From the IMG/VR virus record IMGVR_UViG_3300025098_000013, positions 62,001 to 126,000 of that record: a stretch of DNA of 64,000 bases, one strand, 5' to 3'. Shown here one piece after another: positions 6,740-45,637 of the stretch. Position numbers and translations under genes: made by a program. This DNA comes from a virus. The notes under the pieces were generated by a model that was not told the origin of the DNA, did not search any database, and saw nothing but the letters and a program-made list of their open reading frames with translations. How positions within the stretch are numbered: position 1 is the first letter of the stretch; each line of letters opens with the position of its first letter.

Positions 6740-7938
6740 ATAAATCAGATATATCATTTATCCAACCATCTCGTGATAATTTAAAGTACCTAAAGTGGTC
6801 ATACGATTCAATCAGAAAGAATGGTGGGCCAGAACCAACCATTTGTGTTGCAGATGACTTCAGTAACGATGGAACTTGGGAGTGGTGTCAAGAAATGATG
6901 ACCACGGACCCAAACTTCAAGGCAATACGAAACGAAGGACCAACACGATTGGGTCATACTATTCTATACGATAGATTAATCAACGAAGTAGCTACCACGC
7001 CAATTGTAGGTATATATCATGCTGATATGTATTTATGTCCTGGCGCTCTTGAATCAGTATTAGAACACATTAAACCTCTAAGTGTGGTATCACTTACTCG
7101 TATCGAACCACCATTACATCCGGATGGTCCTGAAAAGATTCTTTTGGACTTTGGTATTGAGCCGGAAGAGTTTGTTGATTTAGAAGATAAGCTATTAGAA
7201 CAATTACCATCGTTAAAACAAGGTAAAACTACTGAGGGTATATTTGCCCCATGGTTCTTATTTAAAGAAGACTTTACTTCTATTGGTGGACACGACCCGT
7301 TATTTGCACCCCAATCAAAAGAAGATACTGATATCTTTAATCGATTCCATCTGAATGGATATAAGTTTATTCAGACTTGGGATGGGTTTGTATATCATAT
7401 GACTTGTAGAGGTAGTAGATTTGCAGATGGAGCGAAGCGTAATCCAAATGGAGAGGTCTTCATGAAGAATAGGGAGACTGATGAGTGGTTGATTCAGAAT
7501 CAACGTTCAACTCGTAACTTCCTTAGAAAGTGGGGGCATTATTGTAAACATGATAAGTTAATGAAACCAGTCGTACCACATAAGTACGATATACAATTCA
7601 ATATTGAAAATGGTACTTATGCATTACTACATGCCTTAGAACCCTGGTGTAGTAGAATTGTAATAGATTTAGATAAAGATAAAATCAAAGAATATATTGA
7701 GTTAGAACAACCAAGCACTCAGTTCGATTTAAGTAAAAGAATCAATGTAGATGTAGATTCTGATATTGAAATTAGTTTTGATGGTAATAAATTTACACAA
7801 AATGCATTTAATTACATACAGCAATTATCAGAAATATTAGATTTTAACGATTTTTCTAATGGTGAGTATGAATTAGACATATTTAATATAAAGGTGAATC
7901 GTGTAAAACACTACGATTCTGAGTTAATTAATCTATGA
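6733..7938 (+). CDS. family 2 glycosyltransferase with C-terminal extension
   Basis: A 401-residue glycosyltransferase. The N-terminal GT2 domain has SFIQPSRDNLKYLKWSY, CVADDFSNDGTWEW and YHADMYL in the metal-binding position, then FAPWFLFKEDF and GGHDPLFAPQSKEDTD. The last 150 residues are an extra domain of unknown role. It closes the glycan cluster and overlaps both neighbours by a few bases. Confidence 0.75.
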   Translation: MLNKSDISFIQPSRDNLKYLKWSYDSIRKNGGPEPTICVADDFSNDGTWEWCQEMMTTDPNFKAIRNEGPTRLGHTILYDRLINEVATTPIVGIYHADMYLCPGALESVLEHIKPLSVVSLTRIEPPLHPDGPEKILLDFGIEPEEFVDLEDKLLEQLPSLKQGKTTEGIFAPWFLFKEDFTSIGGHDPLFAPQSKEDTDIFNRFHLNGYKFIQTWDGFVYHMTCRGSRFADGAKRNPNGEVFMKNRETDEWLIQNQRSTRNFLRKWGHYCKHDKLMKPVVPHKYDIQFNIENGTYALLHALEPWCSRIVIDLDKDKIKEYIELEQPSTQFDLSKRINVDVDSDIEISFDGNKFTQNAFNYIQQLSEILDFNDFSNGEYELDIFNIKVNRVKHYDSELINL

Positions 7939-9521: not shown

Positions 9522-12479
9522 ATGAAAAAGTATTTAATTAATTTATTACTATTGTTATTACCAACTGTAACATTAGCACAAGGTACAAGTTGGTTTGAGT
9601 TAAAAGTAGAATTTGGTAGATACATATTCACCAGTGGAAATGTATATTCAAACGACCAGTCAATTTTAATAAAGCAAGGTAACGATACATTATACTACAA
9701 AGACTACGTTTCCTTAACTAATCCAAGTACTTACAACTACACTATTTTAAATTGTGATACTGGTGATGTTAAGATAATACTTAACTCTAATAGAACTAGA
9801 TGGTGGGATAATCAAGGTGTACCTCCGGTTGTGTGGTTACGAAACGCAACTCAAGATACATTTGTAAACATAGCCCCAATGACATTAGGGTTATTTAGTG
9901 GTGCAAACTCAGTTTACTCATACGATACAACTGTTAATCTCCTATCACAACCACCACCATACGCAGGTTGTATGGATACATTATCTTCAACTTACGACTC
10001 TAATGCTAATATTAATAATGGTCAATGTAAATATCCTGTAACTTTTGCAGTAGATATGAACTCTTATAATGACACGTTCTCTCAAGTTTATGTAAGTGGG
10101 CAGTTTAATAGTTGGAGTGGTATTGCAGATTCTTTATCTGATTCAGATGGTGATGGTATTTGGACAGGTACTATTGATATACTAAACAATCCAGGTTGGT
10201 TATGGAAGTACTCAGTTGATAACTGGGTTGACCAAGAGTTACCACCAAATATGCAAAACAATCAAAACCCATACGCTACTTGTTTCTTATTAGATGCCGC
10301 AGGGTTTACAAATAGAAATCTTATTGTAGATGGAACATCAGTAGTATTAGATACTAATTGTTGGGAAAAGTGTTTAGATTGTGCTGATATTATAGGATGT
10401 ACTGATACCACTTCTGCCGAATACAACCCATGGGCTACAATAAGTGATGGGAAGTGTATAGGGAATCCAGCAGATACACTTTCTTGTTCTTCAAGTGAAA
10501 CTTACTTAGACGTACAATTCACTCCCGATAACTATGGTAGTGAATCAAGTTGGATTCTTTATGACAATAATGGAGCAGTATATACAGCATCTCAAGGGAC
10601 CTATTCTGGCGCATCACCAGGTATAGCTATATCACATTACATTTGTGTTGATACAAATGTATTAGTAGATATTGTAATTAACGATTCTTATGGTGATGGT
10701 TTAAATGGTACTTTATTTGGTGGTCAAGTAGATGGTGATTTAAAAGTATATGATTGTTCAGGTAATCTATTATGGTCGTTATCTGATACAATTCCAAATG
10801 GTAACTTTGGGTATCAATTCACATCTCCACAATTTAATACTGGAGGGATATGTTCTTCAGGCGCGTCTGATGTTTATGGGTGTATGAATCCATTCTCAAC
10901 CACATACAATCCAAGTGCTACAATAGACACGGGTACGTGTGGGCCAGCCCGAATAGTAGGATGTACTGACACATCAGCATTCAACTATGTAGATACCGCT
11001 AACACCAGTGAGATAATGACTGGCGATTATACCTTAAAAATAAAAGATGGCGCCTCAAATGGTTGGGGTGGTACTTGGTTAGGTATCAAACAAGGTGATA
11101 ACTTGTCTCCTCAATTTAAAATGGGACCAAATGATGGTTATGAATTAACGTTTGATGTACCTTTAAACATCTATGAACCAATTGATTTGTACCTATTTAC
11201 AACGACTCAATCTCAAAACTCAATCGCTCAGATAGCATATACGTTGTATGGTCCTGAAGGTGATACTATTGTAGATGTTCCGTTTTGGGGAGCAACTACA
11301 TTACAATTCCCCATAATTCAAAGAGTTGATTCACAACCAACATTTGGTGATGTTTGTATCGAAAAAGTATTCGGATGTACCGATTCAACATCTATTAATT
11401 ACGATTCATTAGCTAATACCGATGATGGTGGGTGTATTCCTGTTATTTTAGGATGTATGAATCCATTGTCATTTAATTACAACCCTAATGCAAATACGCC
11501 TGATACTTGTATAGCTATTAAAGTAGGTTGTACGGATTCAACAATGTGGAATTACGACCCATTAGCAAATACGTCAGGTACTTGTATTCCTTATATCTAT
11601 GGTTGTACAAACCCATCCTCATTTAATTATAATGCATTAGCTAACACGGATGATGGTTCATGTGTTCCTGTAATTTATGGGTGTACGGACCCAACATCTT
11701 ATAATTACGATTCATTAGCTAACACGGATGATGGGTCGTGTATCGCTAGAGTGTATGGTTGTACTGATTCAACTTCGTTTAACTTTGACCCATTAGCTAA
11801 TACTGATAATGGAACTTGTGTTCCTTACATTTATGGGTGTATGGATGTTAACTCATTTAACTACAATCCTGATGCTAATACAAATCAAGTATCGGCTACT
11901 GATTTTTCAAACCCATGTATTCCAATTATCTATGGTTGTACTGATTCAACGTCACTTAACTACAACCCATTAGCTAATACTGATAATGGTAGTTGTATTA
12001 CCCCAATATATGGTTGTACTGACCCAAATGCTCATAATTATAACCCAAATGCTAATGTTTCTGACACTACGGCGTGTTTATATGATGCTGGGTGTATAGA
12101 TGGGCCTGGTAACCCATATTGGTTAAATGACCCATGTTACGCTTGGGTAATTGATGTAGACGAGTATTGTTGTACTAATTCGTGGGACACTGATTGTCAA
12201 TATCTGTATGATTATTGTGCTACTGTCAATGGTACTCTTAGTATTGATGATATTGACTTTAAAAATATTGTTGTGTATCCTAACCCAACAACAAATACAT
12301 TAAATATCAGAACTACCTTGGATATTACATATACTTTATACGACTTTATGGGTAAATTGATTGTTGAAAATTCTAAAGAACGAACAATTGATATGTCATC
12401 ATTAGCAAATGGTGTTTATTTCCTATCAATTGAACACCATGGTACACGATTTAATAAAAAAATTGTAAAGGAAGATTAA
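9522..12479 (+). CDS. secreted Cys-rich repeat protein with type IX secretion sorting domain
   Basis: A 985-residue exported protein. A signal peptide (about residues 1-19, ending TLAQ) is followed by a beta-rich region, a carbohydrate-binding-like domain (AVDMNSYNDTFSQVYVSGQF near residue 175), a domain with INDSYGDGLNG near residue 388, then about nine near-tandem repeats of the form YGCTDSTSxNYDPLANTDDGSC (about residues 615-880). A CCTNSWDTDC segment follows. The last 75 residues are a typical T9SS type A sorting domain: VVYPNPTTNTLNI, YTLYDFMGKL, LANGVYFLSI and a basic tail. Such proteins are normally cell-surface products of Bacteroidota. Here it sits one base before an outer-membrane-type gene, in a phage lysis region. 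Confidence 0.88.
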   Translation: MKKYLINLLLLLLPTVTLAQGTSWFELKVEFGRYIFTSGNVYSNDQSILIKQGNDTLYYKDYVSLTNPSTYNYTILNCDTGDVKIILNSNRTRWWDNQGVPPVVWLRNATQDTFVNIAPMTLGLFSGANSVYSYDTTVNLLSQPPPYAGCMDTLSSTYDSNANINNGQCKYPVTFAVDMNSYNDTFSQVYVSGQFNSWSGIADSLSDSDGDGIWTGTIDILNNPGWLWKYSVDNWVDQELPPNMQNNQNPYATCFLLDAAGFTNRNLIVDGTSVVLDTNCWEKCLDCADIIGCTDTTSAEYNPWATISDGKCIGNPADTLSCSSSETYLDVQFTPDNYGSESSWILYDNNGAVYTASQGTYSGASPGIAISHYICVDTNVLVDIVINDSYGDGLNGTLFGGQVDGDLKVYDCSGNLLWSLSDTIPNGNFGYQFTSPQFNTGGICSSGASDVYGCMNPFSTTYNPSATIDTGTCGPARIVGCTDTSAFNYVDTANTSEIMTGDYTLKIKDGASNGWGGTWLGIKQGDNLSPQFKMGPNDGYELTFDVPLNIYEPIDLYLFTTTQSQNSIAQIAYTLYGPEGDTIVDVPFWGATTLQFPIIQRVDSQPTFGDVCIEKVFGCTDSTSINYDSLANTDDGGCIPVILGCMNPLSFNYNPNANTPDTCIAIKVGCTDSTMWNYDPLANTSGTCIPYIYGCTNPSSFNYNALANTDDGSCVPVIYGCTDPTSYNYDSLANTDDGSCIARVYGCTDSTSFNFDPLANTDNGTCVPYIYGCMDVNSFNYNPDANTNQVSATDFSNPCIPIIYGCTDSTSLNYNPLANTDNGSCITPIYGCTDPNAHNYNPNANVSDTTACLYDAGCIDGPGNPYWLNDPCYAWVIDVDEYCCTNSWDTDCQYLYDYCATVNGTLSIDDIDFKNIVVYPNPTTNTLNIRTTLDITYTLYDFMGKLIVENSKERTIDMSSLANGVYFLSIEHHGTRFNKKIVKED
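11370..12090 (+). repeat. tandem coding repeats (GCTDxTSxNYDPLANTDDGSC)
   Basis: About nine imperfect 75-78 base units inside the T9SS cargo gene, each encoding one Cys-bounded unit of about 25 residues. Codon choice differs between units, so they are diverged rather than freshly duplicated. Four more isolated units lie earlier in the gene. Confidence 0.85.
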
Positions 12480-36761: not shown

Positions 36762-36916
36762 GCTGGGGTCGGTTTTCCTATCGAGCCTGGTTTTTTTGGA
36801 TGGAAAAGAAGTCCCCTCCACGCTTGGATACACCAAAGTGAGATGATATTAAAATACCTAATGTTAATATATGGGTAATACTTGTTAATAACCTGTCAAT
36901 ACTTTCAGAGATATTG

Positions 36917-36948
36917 TTTGGTTATACAAGTATATTGTTGTATATTAG
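36917..36948 (+). promoter_or_regulatory. Bacteroidota-type promoter
   Basis: TTTG at 36917-36920, 20-base spacer, TATATTAG at 36941-36948, then the usual GAGTAATAAGAGATAAGAGTT leader before ATG 36972. Confidence 0.75.
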
Positions 36949-36971
36949 TAGAGTAATAAGAGATAAGAGTT

Positions 36972-37265
36972 ATGACGTATTTAATTGACCCACAAGATTT
37001 AGTCCTTAGAGCATGGACACGTATTAAAGGTTTCAATGACATGGTTATTGGTAACGACATTGAATCACACACACTATTAGAACTAGCAACTGAGGTTTCT
37101 GAAGAGTGGACTAACGATTGGGATGAAGACCAAGGGTTTGGTTCTTCTGATGGGACGTATATGTTAAAGGAGTTTATTGATTCCGTGATAGGGCTGGTTC
37201 ATTGGAAGAATCATAAGAAAGAGTATTCTACTAAGTTCAACCCGATGTTAGAGGTTGTTAAATAA
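36972..37265 (+). CDS. hypothetical protein (97 aa)
   Basis: MTYLIDPQDLVLRAWTRIK, acidic. AGAGTTATG start after a clear promoter. Not recognised. Confidence 0.6.
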   Translation: MTYLIDPQDLVLRAWTRIKGFNDMVIGNDIESHTLLELATEVSEEWTNDWDEDQGFGSSDGTYMLKEFIDSVIGLVHWKNHKKEYSTKFNPMLEVVK

Positions 37266-37274
37266 TTTTGGATT

Positions 37275-37433
37275 ATGAAGTATTGGAAGTATTATAAGGT
37301 GCCTGTGTTTTTTTCGTGGTTGTTCAGAGTTAGAATGGAACGATTGGGTTGGAAGGTTACCAAGGTCTCAGGCGTTATACTATTAACCTATCGTGTGTCT
37401 ACATATGATAGAGAGTTATATATGGGGTTATGA
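37275..37433 (+). CDS. hypothetical protein (52 aa)
   Basis: MKYWKYYKVPVFFSWLFRV, basic and aromatic-rich, possibly membrane-associated. Nine bases after the previous stop. Confidence 0.4.
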   Translation: MKYWKYYKVPVFFSWLFRVRMERLGWKVTKVSGVILLTYRVSTYDRELYMGL

Positions 37434-37492
37434 TAAGAAATAACGATAATCTTTACATAGTAAAGGAGATGTGATAAGAAAATGGAAAGTTT

Positions 37493-37729
37493 ATGACTGA
37501 TAAACAATGGTCAGCTTTAATAAGGATGACAAGGGGTGGGATACATTCAGTAGAAGCTTCCCTTGGAAAGATAACCTTGATTAAAAAGGATGATGGGTTT
37601 GACTTAGAGTATCCTTCCCATAGTGTATCTTTGTATAGGGATGTTGATATACCTTCTACTGATGGTTATTATCTTCATTATATGTATAATGATTTATTTA
37701 ATAAAGTATTTGACCACTCTTGTATATAG
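37493..37729 (+). CDS. hypothetical protein (78 aa), paralogue of 37852
   Basis: MTDKQWSALIRMTRGGIHS. The WSALIRM block is shared with the gene at 37852, which indicates duplication. Beta-rich remainder. Not recognised. Confidence 0.5.
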   Translation: MTDKQWSALIRMTRGGIHSVEASLGKITLIKKDDGFDLEYPSHSVSLYRDVDIPSTDGYYLHYMYNDLFNKVFDHSCI

Positions 37730-44543: not shown

Positions 44544-44617
44544 GGACTCGTAGCTCAGCTGGATAGAGCATCTGCCTTCTAAGCAGACGGTCATAGGTTC
44601 GAATCCTATCGGGTTCA
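44544..44617 (+). tRNA. tRNA-Arg (TCT)
   Basis: Cloverleaf with acceptor GGACTCG/CGGGTTC (two G-U pairs), D arm TAGCTCAGCTGGATAGAGCA, anticodon loop CTTCTAA, T arm GGTTCGAATCC. CCA not encoded. Reads AGA, a codon used heavily by this AT-rich phage. Confidence 0.95.
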
Positions 44618-44620
44618 CAT

Positions 44621-44709: not shown

Positions 44710-44781
44710 GCTCGGTTCGTCTATCGGTTAGGACCTATGGTTTTCATCCATAAAAGAGGGGTTCGATTCCCCTACCGAGTA
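44710..44781 (+). tRNA. tRNA-Glu (TTC)
   Basis: Acceptor GCTCGGT/ACCGAGT (first pair G-U), D arm GTCTATCGGTTAGGAC, anticodon loop TTTTCAT, T arm GGGGTTCGATTCCCC. No CCA encoded. Confidence 0.92.
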
Positions 44782-44785
44782 CAAT

Positions 44786-44856
44786 TGTCCGATGGTGTAA
44801 TGGCAACACTTCTGTTTTTGGTACAGACATTCAAGGTTCGAGTCCTTGTCGGATAA
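44786..44856 (+). tRNA. tRNA-Gln (TTG)
   Basis: Acceptor TGTCCGA/TCGGATA starting with U1-A72, as usual for tRNA-Gln; anticodon loop TTTTGGT within TCTGT/ACAGA; T arm AAGGTTCGAGTCCTT. Four bases after tRNA-Glu. Confidence 0.92.
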
Positions 44857-44881
44857 CTAAGTTTACTAAAGTTGAGTAGAC

Positions 44882-45176: not shown

Positions 45177-45261
45177 GGAAGATTGGCAGAGTGGTCGATT
45201 GCACTGGTCTTGAAAACCAGCGTACAGCAATGTACCATAGGTTCGAATCCTATATCTTCCG
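45177..45261 (+). tRNA. tRNA-Ser (TGA)
   Basis: Class II tRNA: acceptor GGAAGAT/ATCTTCC, anticodon loop CTTGAAA in CTGGT/ACCAG, long variable arm GTACAGCAATGTAC, T arm ATAGGTTCGAATCCTAT, discriminator G. Confidence 0.95.
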
Positions 45262-45290
45262 CAATTCGCAGTCAAGTATTTTATATTTTA

Positions 45291-45322
45291 TTTGTTTTAT
45301 TCAAAAAATTGTTGTATATTGT
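45291..45322 (+). promoter_or_regulatory. Bacteroidota-type promoter of tRNA-like RNAs
   Basis: TTTG at 45291-45294, 20-base spacer, TATATTGT at 45315-45322. The first tRNA-like RNA begins 12 bases later, so this promoter is dedicated to the downstream RNA cluster. Confidence 0.75.
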
Positions 45323-45334
45323 ATAAACAATAAC

Positions 45335-45406
45335 GCGGGAGAAGACTTAAAAGAAAGTCGTCTATCATCCAGATAGAAGGTGTTGGGGCAGTACCAACCT
45401 CCCGCT
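45335..45406 (+). ncRNA. tRNA-shaped RNA 1, glycine-type, non-canonical loops
   Basis: Exact tRNA architecture over 72 bases: acceptor GCGGGAG/CTCCCGC, AA, D-like stem GACTT/AAGTC with loop AAAAGA, one base, anticodon-like stem TCTAT/ATAGA with loop CATCCAG (TCC in anticodon position), variable AGGT, T-like stem GTTGG/CCAAC with loop GGCAGTA, discriminator T. Invariant tRNA bases are missing: no U8, no GG in the D loop, A instead of U33, no TTC in the T loop. Glycine identity elements (G1-C72, C2-G71, C35, C36, U73) are all present. Confidence 0.75.
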
Positions 45407-45409
45407 CAA

Positions 45410-45469
45410 AGAGAATGGTTAAAGATTGGGATAAGGCCGCTCAATTTAAGCTACCGGTTATCATTCTCT
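45410..45469 (+). other. structured spacer with 8-bp closing stem
   Basis: AGAGAATG at 45410-45417 pairs perfectly with CATTCTCT at 45462-45469; inside, ATTGGG pairs with CTCAAT around a nine-base loop. It occupies the gap between the two tRNA-shaped RNAs and may be a processing element or a third structured RNA. Confidence 0.45.
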
Positions 45470-45474
45470 ATAAT

Positions 45475-45546
45475 GCGGAAGAGGAGTTAAGAGAAACTCG
45501 TTGAACATCCAGTTCAAAGATGGTGGGGCGGAGCCACCCTTCCGCT
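45475..45546 (+). ncRNA. tRNA-shaped RNA 2, glycine-type, non-canonical loops
   Basis: Same 72-base architecture as RNA 1: acceptor GCGGAAG/CTTCCGC, AG, D-like stem GAGTT/AACTC with loop AAGAGA, anticodon-like stem TTGAA/TTCAA with the identical loop CATCCAG, variable AGAT, T-like stem GGTGG/CCACC with loop GGCGGAG, discriminator T. All four stems differ from RNA 1 with compensating changes while loops stay nearly the same, which is strong evidence for the fold. Confidence 0.75.
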
Positions 45547-45552
45547 CAATAA

Positions 45553-45625
45553 GCGAAAGTAGCTCAGCTGGTAGAGCATCACCTTGCCAAGGTGGGGGTC
45601 GCGAGTTCGAATCTCGTCTTTCGCT
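45553..45625 (+). tRNA. tRNA-Gly (GCC)
   Basis: Canonical: acceptor GCGAAAG/CTTTCGC, D arm TAGCTCAGCTGGTAGAGCA, anticodon loop TTGCCAA, T arm CGAGTTCGAATCTCG, discriminator T. It lies six bases after the second tRNA-shaped RNA and is probably cotranscribed with both. Confidence 0.95.
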
Positions 45626-45637
45626 CTAAGATTCTTA

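Follow-up and report, generated by a model that had tools for sequence, protein, structure and literature searches.

A phage-borne family of glycine tRNA-like RNAs with a re-coded elbow and its possible link to Mom-type DNA modification

RESULTS AND DISCUSSION

Two tRNA-shaped units in the tRNA array of a T4-like phage

The DNA analyzed here belongs to a 178,076-base IMG/VR virus record (G000) of a T4-like phage, which carries T4-like core genes, GroEL, and ribosomal protein bS21. The window, that is, the whole 64,000-nucleotide stretch that we analyzed, covers bases 62001 to 126000 of this record. It contains a tRNA array on the plus strand that begins with tRNA-Arg(TCT) (positions 44544 to 44618), tRNA-Glu(TTC) (44710 to 44782), tRNA-Gln(TTG) (44786 to 44857), and tRNA-Ser(TGA) (45177 to 45262), continues with two 72-nucleotide units, and ends with tRNA-Gly(GCC) (45553 to 45626). 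A canonical tRNA-Gly(UCC) is absent from the array in the window.

A first-pass annotation made from the sequence had described the two units as tRNA-shaped RNAs that differ by compensating changes in all four stems and are followed by a normal tRNA-Gly, and this description was confirmed. Copy 1 (45335 to 45406, plus strand; GCGGGAG...CTCCCGCT) and copy 2 (45475 to 45546, plus strand; GCGGAAG...CTTCCGCT) fold as cloverleafs with 7/5/5/5-bp stems at -29.2 and -28.3 kcal/mol, respectively. Shuffled sequences were as stable in 0 of 200 cases for copy 1 (z = -4.17) and in 1 of 200 for copy 2 (z = -3.18), and the copies match a covariance model of the family described below at 97.4 and 94.5 bits. 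Both have the anticodon loop CATCCAG; the T loop is GGCAGTA in copy 1, which encodes C74 without the rest of a CCA end, and GGCGGAG in copy 2. The tRNA-Gly(GCC) located 3' of copy 2 is their ordinary decoding counterpart, with G18G19, the T loop TTCGAAT, and a G51-C63 pair. Neither copy was called by ARAGORN or by Rfam at its gathering threshold, with which all five ordinary tRNAs were detected, and when the stretch was scanned permissively with Rfam, a single match at chance level was obtained.

A dedicated promoter had been proposed 12 bases upstream of copy 1. A sigma-70 scan of this upstream region did not find a promoter, but about a dozen homologous loci have a Bacteroidota-like box of the TATATTTG type 5' of their first copy, at a similar distance. 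In the window, the corresponding promoter-like -7 box, TATATTG, lies at 45315 to 45321 on the plus strand, 13 bases 5' of copy 1. The promoter type, and only that, suggests a Bacteroidota host for the source phage.

An undescribed phage RNA family with covarying stems

Homologues were sought with a degenerate pattern derived from the two copies, whose 52 matches included approximately 27 contigs with genuine homologues; a second pattern that left the anticodon loop free brought the total to about 38 IMG/VR phage records. Most of these contigs carry exactly two copies, usually within a tRNA array. A strict-motif scan of approximately 85,000 genomes of bacterial and archaeal species gave three chance matches and zero homologues, and a BLAST comparison of the window stretch to cultured phages returned only A+T-rich noise.

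The family alignment comprises 36 distinct sequences, in which 99.9% of stem cells are paired, compared to only about 50% in slid controls. All four stems covary: double-sided changes occur in 12 of the 22 stem pairs, and 134 cells are compensated, versus 43.7 in shuffles. Positions that are invariant in the 36 homologues include G1-C72, C2-G71, G3-C70, C35, C36, A37, U73, and the encoded C74. Based on these comparisons, we conclude with high confidence that the two units belong to an undescribed phage RNA family. It might be argued that they are functionless, decayed or chance tRNA remnants, as ordinary tRNA detection misses both copies. Covariation rules out tRNA decay, including the recent duplication of a decayed tRNA, and the near-complete pairing and double-sided changes of 36 distinct sequences, together with loops that are invariant over many contigs, leave such remnants with essentially no chance of being the explanation. 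We also considered, and rejected, the idea that the CATCCAG loop pairs with the 3' end of 16S rRNA, since the loop varies at positions 33 and 34.

Tertiary pairs replaced as matched pairs

The first-pass annotation had also stated that the units lack the invariant tRNA bases, which is correct in part. G18, U54, U55, A58, U8, and U33 are indeed missing from both copies, but G19 and C56 are present, and most of the missing bases are replaced as matched pairs. Specifically, G18-U55 is replaced by A18-G55, U54-A58 by G54-G58, and U8-A14 by A8-U14, while G19-C56 is kept; G54 might alternatively pair with U60 instead of contacting G58. The elbow contacts of canonical tRNA are G18-Psi55 and G19-C56 (PMC4810234). 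The phage RNA thus has cloverleaf geometry in common with the Rfam tRNA family RF00005 (7/4-5/5/5-bp stems) but falls below its gathering score, has other bases at consensus positions 8, 18, 33, 54, 55, and 58, and lacks the U33, U8, G18-U55, and U54-A58 of a canonical elongator tRNA.

A looser pattern revealed a continuum of glycine RNAs that runs from T4-type tRNA-Gly(UCC), found in canonical form in L084 and L173, to the window's family, referred to here as class iii, with intermediates linking the two. T4-type tRNA-Gly(UCC) resembles the phage RNA in its GCG...CGCU acceptor, its UCC anticodon, and its location in tRNA arrays but differs from it in having G18G19, a TTCRANY T loop, U8, U33, and CCA and in decoding. 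Class ii, which is pelagiphage-type and occurs in many contigs, has U8, U33, and CCA together with the D loop AAAAGTA and the T loop GGCAGTA. Because of this continuum, the units are better described as rebuilt than as decayed tRNAs.

Tertiary pairs were counted in at least 106 distinct units among the looser-pattern matches listed, a set in which class frequencies are biased because the pattern fixed part of the T arm. Among these 106 units, positions 18-55 are A-G in 80 and G-U in 25; positions 54-58 are G-G in 70, U-A in 27, A-U in 4, and others in 5; positions 8-14 are A-U in 55 and U-A in 50; and positions 32-38 are C-G in 53, U-A in 45, A-U in 5, and G-C in 2, with G19-C56 near-constant. 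In a reduced set of 32 representatives at 80% identity, the mutual information of each of the four variable pairs was reached by 0 of 5,000 permutations. The changes are separable and occur independently of each other in different lineages: A18-G55 is combined with U54-A58 and U8-A14 in L118 and L165, G54-G58 with G18-U55 in L086 and L130, and A8-U14 with an ordinary elbow in L112 and L094. We are therefore highly confident that re-coding as compensated pairs, not loss, accounts for the state of the elbow and the 8-14 pair. In nature, then, the elbow (18-55 and 54-58) and the 8-14 pair can be re-coded as matched pairs, and the family in which this is seen is widespread among phages.

The A18-G55 double change is also present in tRNA-Gly(GCC) of pelagiphage-type contigs (L118:3913, a reverse-strand coordinate; L165:11368; L085:6062; and L174:2390), and the elbow swap is thus not confined to UCC isoacceptors.

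Glycine identity and decoding

The experimentally established determinants of glycine identity in bacteria are G1-C72, C2-G71, C35, C36, and U73 (PMC9976931). All had been noted in the two copies, and we found that they are invariant in all 36 family members, in which the anticodon is either UCC or ACC, both of which specify glycine. Pair 51-63, to which EF-Tu is sensitive, is U-A in 36 of 36 members, compared to G51-C63 in the neighboring tRNA-Gly(GCC), and A18 replaces G18 in all 36, while G19 is retained, as is a G-C pair at 49-65. The combination of invariant glycine identity, lost decoding features, and covarying homologues makes the earlier suggestion of RNAs that are charged with glycine and used outside decoding the best reading of the comparative data, and we consider it likely that class iii does not decode. 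As far as we know, these would be the first phage-borne glycine tRNAs that are apparently built to avoid decoding.

Working GGN-decoding tRNAs with unusual elbows, which would fill the missing tRNA-Gly(UCC) slot of the array, are an alternative that draws on several observations: marine arrays are rich in UNN-type tRNAs and lack a canonical Gly(UCC), the related pelagiphage class retains U33, U8, and an encoded CCA, and relatives with canonical elbows exist. We nevertheless regard decoding as unlikely for the window's family, in which position 33 can be A, U, G, or C, positions 32-38 form a Watson-Crick pair, U54, U55, and U8 are lost, and the anticodon switches between UCC and ACC. Moreover, the odd RNA occurs together with a canonical tRNA-Gly(UCC) in L130, L074, L409, L410, and G092, which makes it an extra in those phages and not simply a decoding isoacceptor.

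An 8-nucleotide apparent anticodon loop (CATTCCAG) is present in glycine-type units at L069:5445-5517, L410 at approximately 1501, and G092:68791, some of which have canonical T loops; these units are possibly intermediates or frameshift-type tRNAs. In addition, D-arm-reduced glycine tRNA-like RNAs (GCGAGTAG...) were observed in L103, L105, L091, L138, and L256, in tandem in L105.

Mom proteins in family-positive phages

A comparison of five family-positive phage genomes identified 51 gene clusters common to all, one of which is a Mom cluster with two tandem paralogues per genome. The mom genes of the window's phage lie outside the window, at G000:36054-36815 and 36799-37593, and a link to Mom was invisible to the first-pass annotation. 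The two proteins exceed the cut-off of the Pfam Mom family (E values of 4e-43 and 1e-48) and match PHROG 1384, a Mom-like DNA modification protein. The predicted structure of Mom (pLDDT of 87.7) has as its best match the Mom protein of phage Mu (8bv8; Foldseek E value of 1.7e-13), followed by CoA-dependent GNATs. Similarity to Mu Mom, an adenine methylcarbamoylase, was likewise found by phmmer (E value of 6e-9) and by profile (PF25680; E value of 1.7e-25), and the proposed partner of the RNA clearly belongs to the same family. In our reading of the alignment, the invariant S107 would correspond to the residue mutated in 8bv8 (S124A).

All 12 near-complete records (at least 125 kb) that were found through the RNA and carry an A8-U14 unit encode Mom, with one to three copies each (G000, G001, G005, G008, G012, G013, G014, G019, G036, G042, G047, and G048). 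For example, G008 (213 kb) contains only three canonical tRNAs, one glycine RNA, and two Mom genes. Among controls of at least 100 kb without an A8-U14 unit, a small set that is not phylogenetically matched, Mom was found in 2 of 14 (Melnitz and G102), and the 12 others were not over the cut-off. The Fisher P value of the association is 9e-6 when records are counted and 3e-4 when lineages, roughly seven, are counted instead; both values overstate independence because the family-positive phages are relatives of one another. The closest TerL relatives, sought as a phylogenetic control, were nearly all short fragments and did not include a complete close relative without the RNA. A search from the Mom side identified further glycine-type RNAs in G086, G087, G088, G092, and G096, with the loop CGTCCAG or CATTCCAG and without U33 at its usual place.

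The RNA gene lies directly beside mom on the same strand in four RNA subclasses. In L114 the RNA precedes mom, and in L119 the two are separated by 173 nucleotides in the same order. In L143 and L247 to L252, mom comes first and the RNA follows about 23 to 82 nucleotides further on, with promoter-like sequence before the RNA in several. The fourth arrangement involves the D-arm-reduced form in L103 and L256, with 58 nucleotides between mom and the RNA that follows it in L103. Adjacency is limited to some clades, as only 7 of the 160 best Mom loci have the RNA within 3 kb.

The co-occurrence also has exceptions on both sides. Mom was not found in the fragments G018 (112 kb) and G040 (107 kb), and it was undetectable in the cultured pelagiphages HTVC008M and Mosig, which were retrieved with a pelagiphage-type query and have the U33-containing class ii RNA. 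Conversely, a full scan of G081, G082, G089, and G090 found Mom and no odd glycine RNA. To our knowledge, phage Mu has one Mom and neither a tRNA gene nor a dedicated RNA, whereas the phages described here have one to three Mom proteins and one or two glycine RNAs. The RNA therefore cannot be a general requirement of Mom enzymes, and with phages that have Mom but lack it and others that have it but lack Mom, it can be at most a specialized supply.

In Melnitz (a Methylophilales phage, MZ577097), a tRNA-Trp-like unit with an A8-U14 swap is located approximately 0.9 kb upstream of mom, within an annotated hypothetical coding sequence (approximately 68570 to 68640; L240:497-567).

A possible glycine donor for Mom

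Mom places a glycine-derived carbamoylmethyl (glycinamide) group on adenine. The donor has been predicted in a review to be an acyl-CoA such as glycyl-CoA (PMC7824862). The presence of glycine RNAs in Mom-carrying phages, sometimes next door to mom, suggests that the RNAs may instead supply glycine for disguising phage DNA. Host GlyRS would glycylate the two phage RNAs, which the U51-A63 pair, altered T loop, and lack of a fixed U33 would keep out of translation through weak recognition by EF-Tu and the ribosome. The glycyl ester on the RNA could then act as the donor for phage Mom-family GNAT enzymes, and the modification of adenines in phage DNA would protect it from restriction. Chemically, it would be coherent for a tRNA specific for glycine to lie next to a GNAT whose reaction adds a glycine-derived group, and we consider a glycyl-RNA donor for Mom the best-supported explanation, with about an even chance of being correct. 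The CoA-dependent GNATs that follow Mu Mom among the structural matches, and the acyl-CoA donor suggested in the review, count against it. Other Mom phages would need host Gly-tRNA or another donor.

FemXAB enzymes have a GNAT-type fold. The closest analogue of the phage RNAs is the non-proteinogenic tRNA-Gly of Staphylococcus aureus, which has altered positions 18-19, has EF-Tu pairs that are weak at 49-65 and 51-63, and is diverted from the ribosome to FemXAB (PMC4052509). In S. aureus, the GG at 18-19 is changed to UU or CU, whereas the phage RNA has A18-G55 and keeps G19-C56; the 54-58 and 8-14 swaps, the variable position 33, the 32-38 pair, and carriage by a phage are seen in the phage RNA only. 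The targets also differ, namely, the cell wall for the S. aureus tRNA-Gly and, as proposed here, DNA for the phage RNA. More tentatively, and with somewhat less than an even chance, the phages may have an aminoacyl-tRNA-dependent DNA modification in which dedicated, ribosome-evading glycine RNAs with a re-coded elbow serve a Mom that moves the glycyl group onto adenine, that is, a FemX-like aminoacyl-tRNA transferase with DNA as its substrate, with Mu using host Gly-tRNA. If the link to Mom is true, it would represent the first case of tRNA-dependent DNA modification to be known, make such a dependence directly testable, and provide a donor of glycine for a modification that has been known since phage Mu. 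Such glycine RNAs would also be markers of hypermodified phage genomes.

Two other roles have to be weighed against a supply of glycine to Mom. Arrays of tRNA genes are known to serve phages against nucleases, and the RNAs could be counter-defense decoys, tRNA-Gly mimics that absorb or mis-aim the effectors with which the host or rival phages target tRNAs, with the re-coded elbow hiding them from elbow-reading proteins. Candidate effectors are anticodon nucleases or TacT-type GNAT toxins, which acetylate Gly-tRNA and read U73 and G71 (PMC9976931). Conservation of the glycine-specific surface with an altered elbow and loop would fit such a function, as would RNA genes that adjoin mom, which could form a single counter-restriction island. 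However, decoys do not predict the link to Mom, although co-occurrence and adjacency are strong, and would have no obvious need for two distinct copies or for keeping U73, C35, and C36 together across diverse backgrounds; we view them as a minor possibility. Very improbable is a role in which the RNAs inhibit GlyRS, or act as a sink, and thereby throttle protein synthesis in the host. In its favor, every GlyRS determinant is kept and the EF-Tu-sensitive T-stem pair looks weak, but this role leaves the position beside mom and the occurrence in large Mom-bearing phages unexplained, and an inhibitor would be expected irrespective of Mom.

Additional RNA features of phage tRNA arrays

Between copies 1 and 2, positions 45410 to 45469 (plus strand) form a second structured element with a 10-bp outer stem, an inner hairpin with the loop ATAARRCCG, a conserved ACCGG, and possibly a CCG/CGG pseudoknot. 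This window copy has no Rfam match. The same element has covarying homologues in other phages, usually directly 5' of the second tRNA-like unit, with an outer stem of 7 to 11 bp that shows compensatory changes and a conserved CCGG (L006, L036, L044, L052, L061, L066, L069, L097, L156, L408, and L409). It appears to be another undescribed structured RNA of tRNA arrays.

Phage bS21 was considered as a partner of the glycine RNA, as it is encoded by 9 of 10 family-positive IMG/VR records over 100 kb (G000:160434-160691 in the source phage). It was rejected as not specific, since it is also present in Melnitz, which has no such RNA according to the model.

In G084, a Mom-bearing 189-kb phage, ARAGORN detected a tRNA with the anticodon CTA (called Pyl) at 9952 to 10026 on the minus strand, which may point to UAG recoding. 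Lastly, both cultured pelagiphages contain a previously unrecognized re-coded tRNA-Gly: that of Mosig (EXVC030M, MT647606) at 7779 to 7852 is annotated as a hypothetical coding sequence, and that of HTVC008M (KC465899) at 91140 to 91213 lies directly upstream of the phage bS21 gene.
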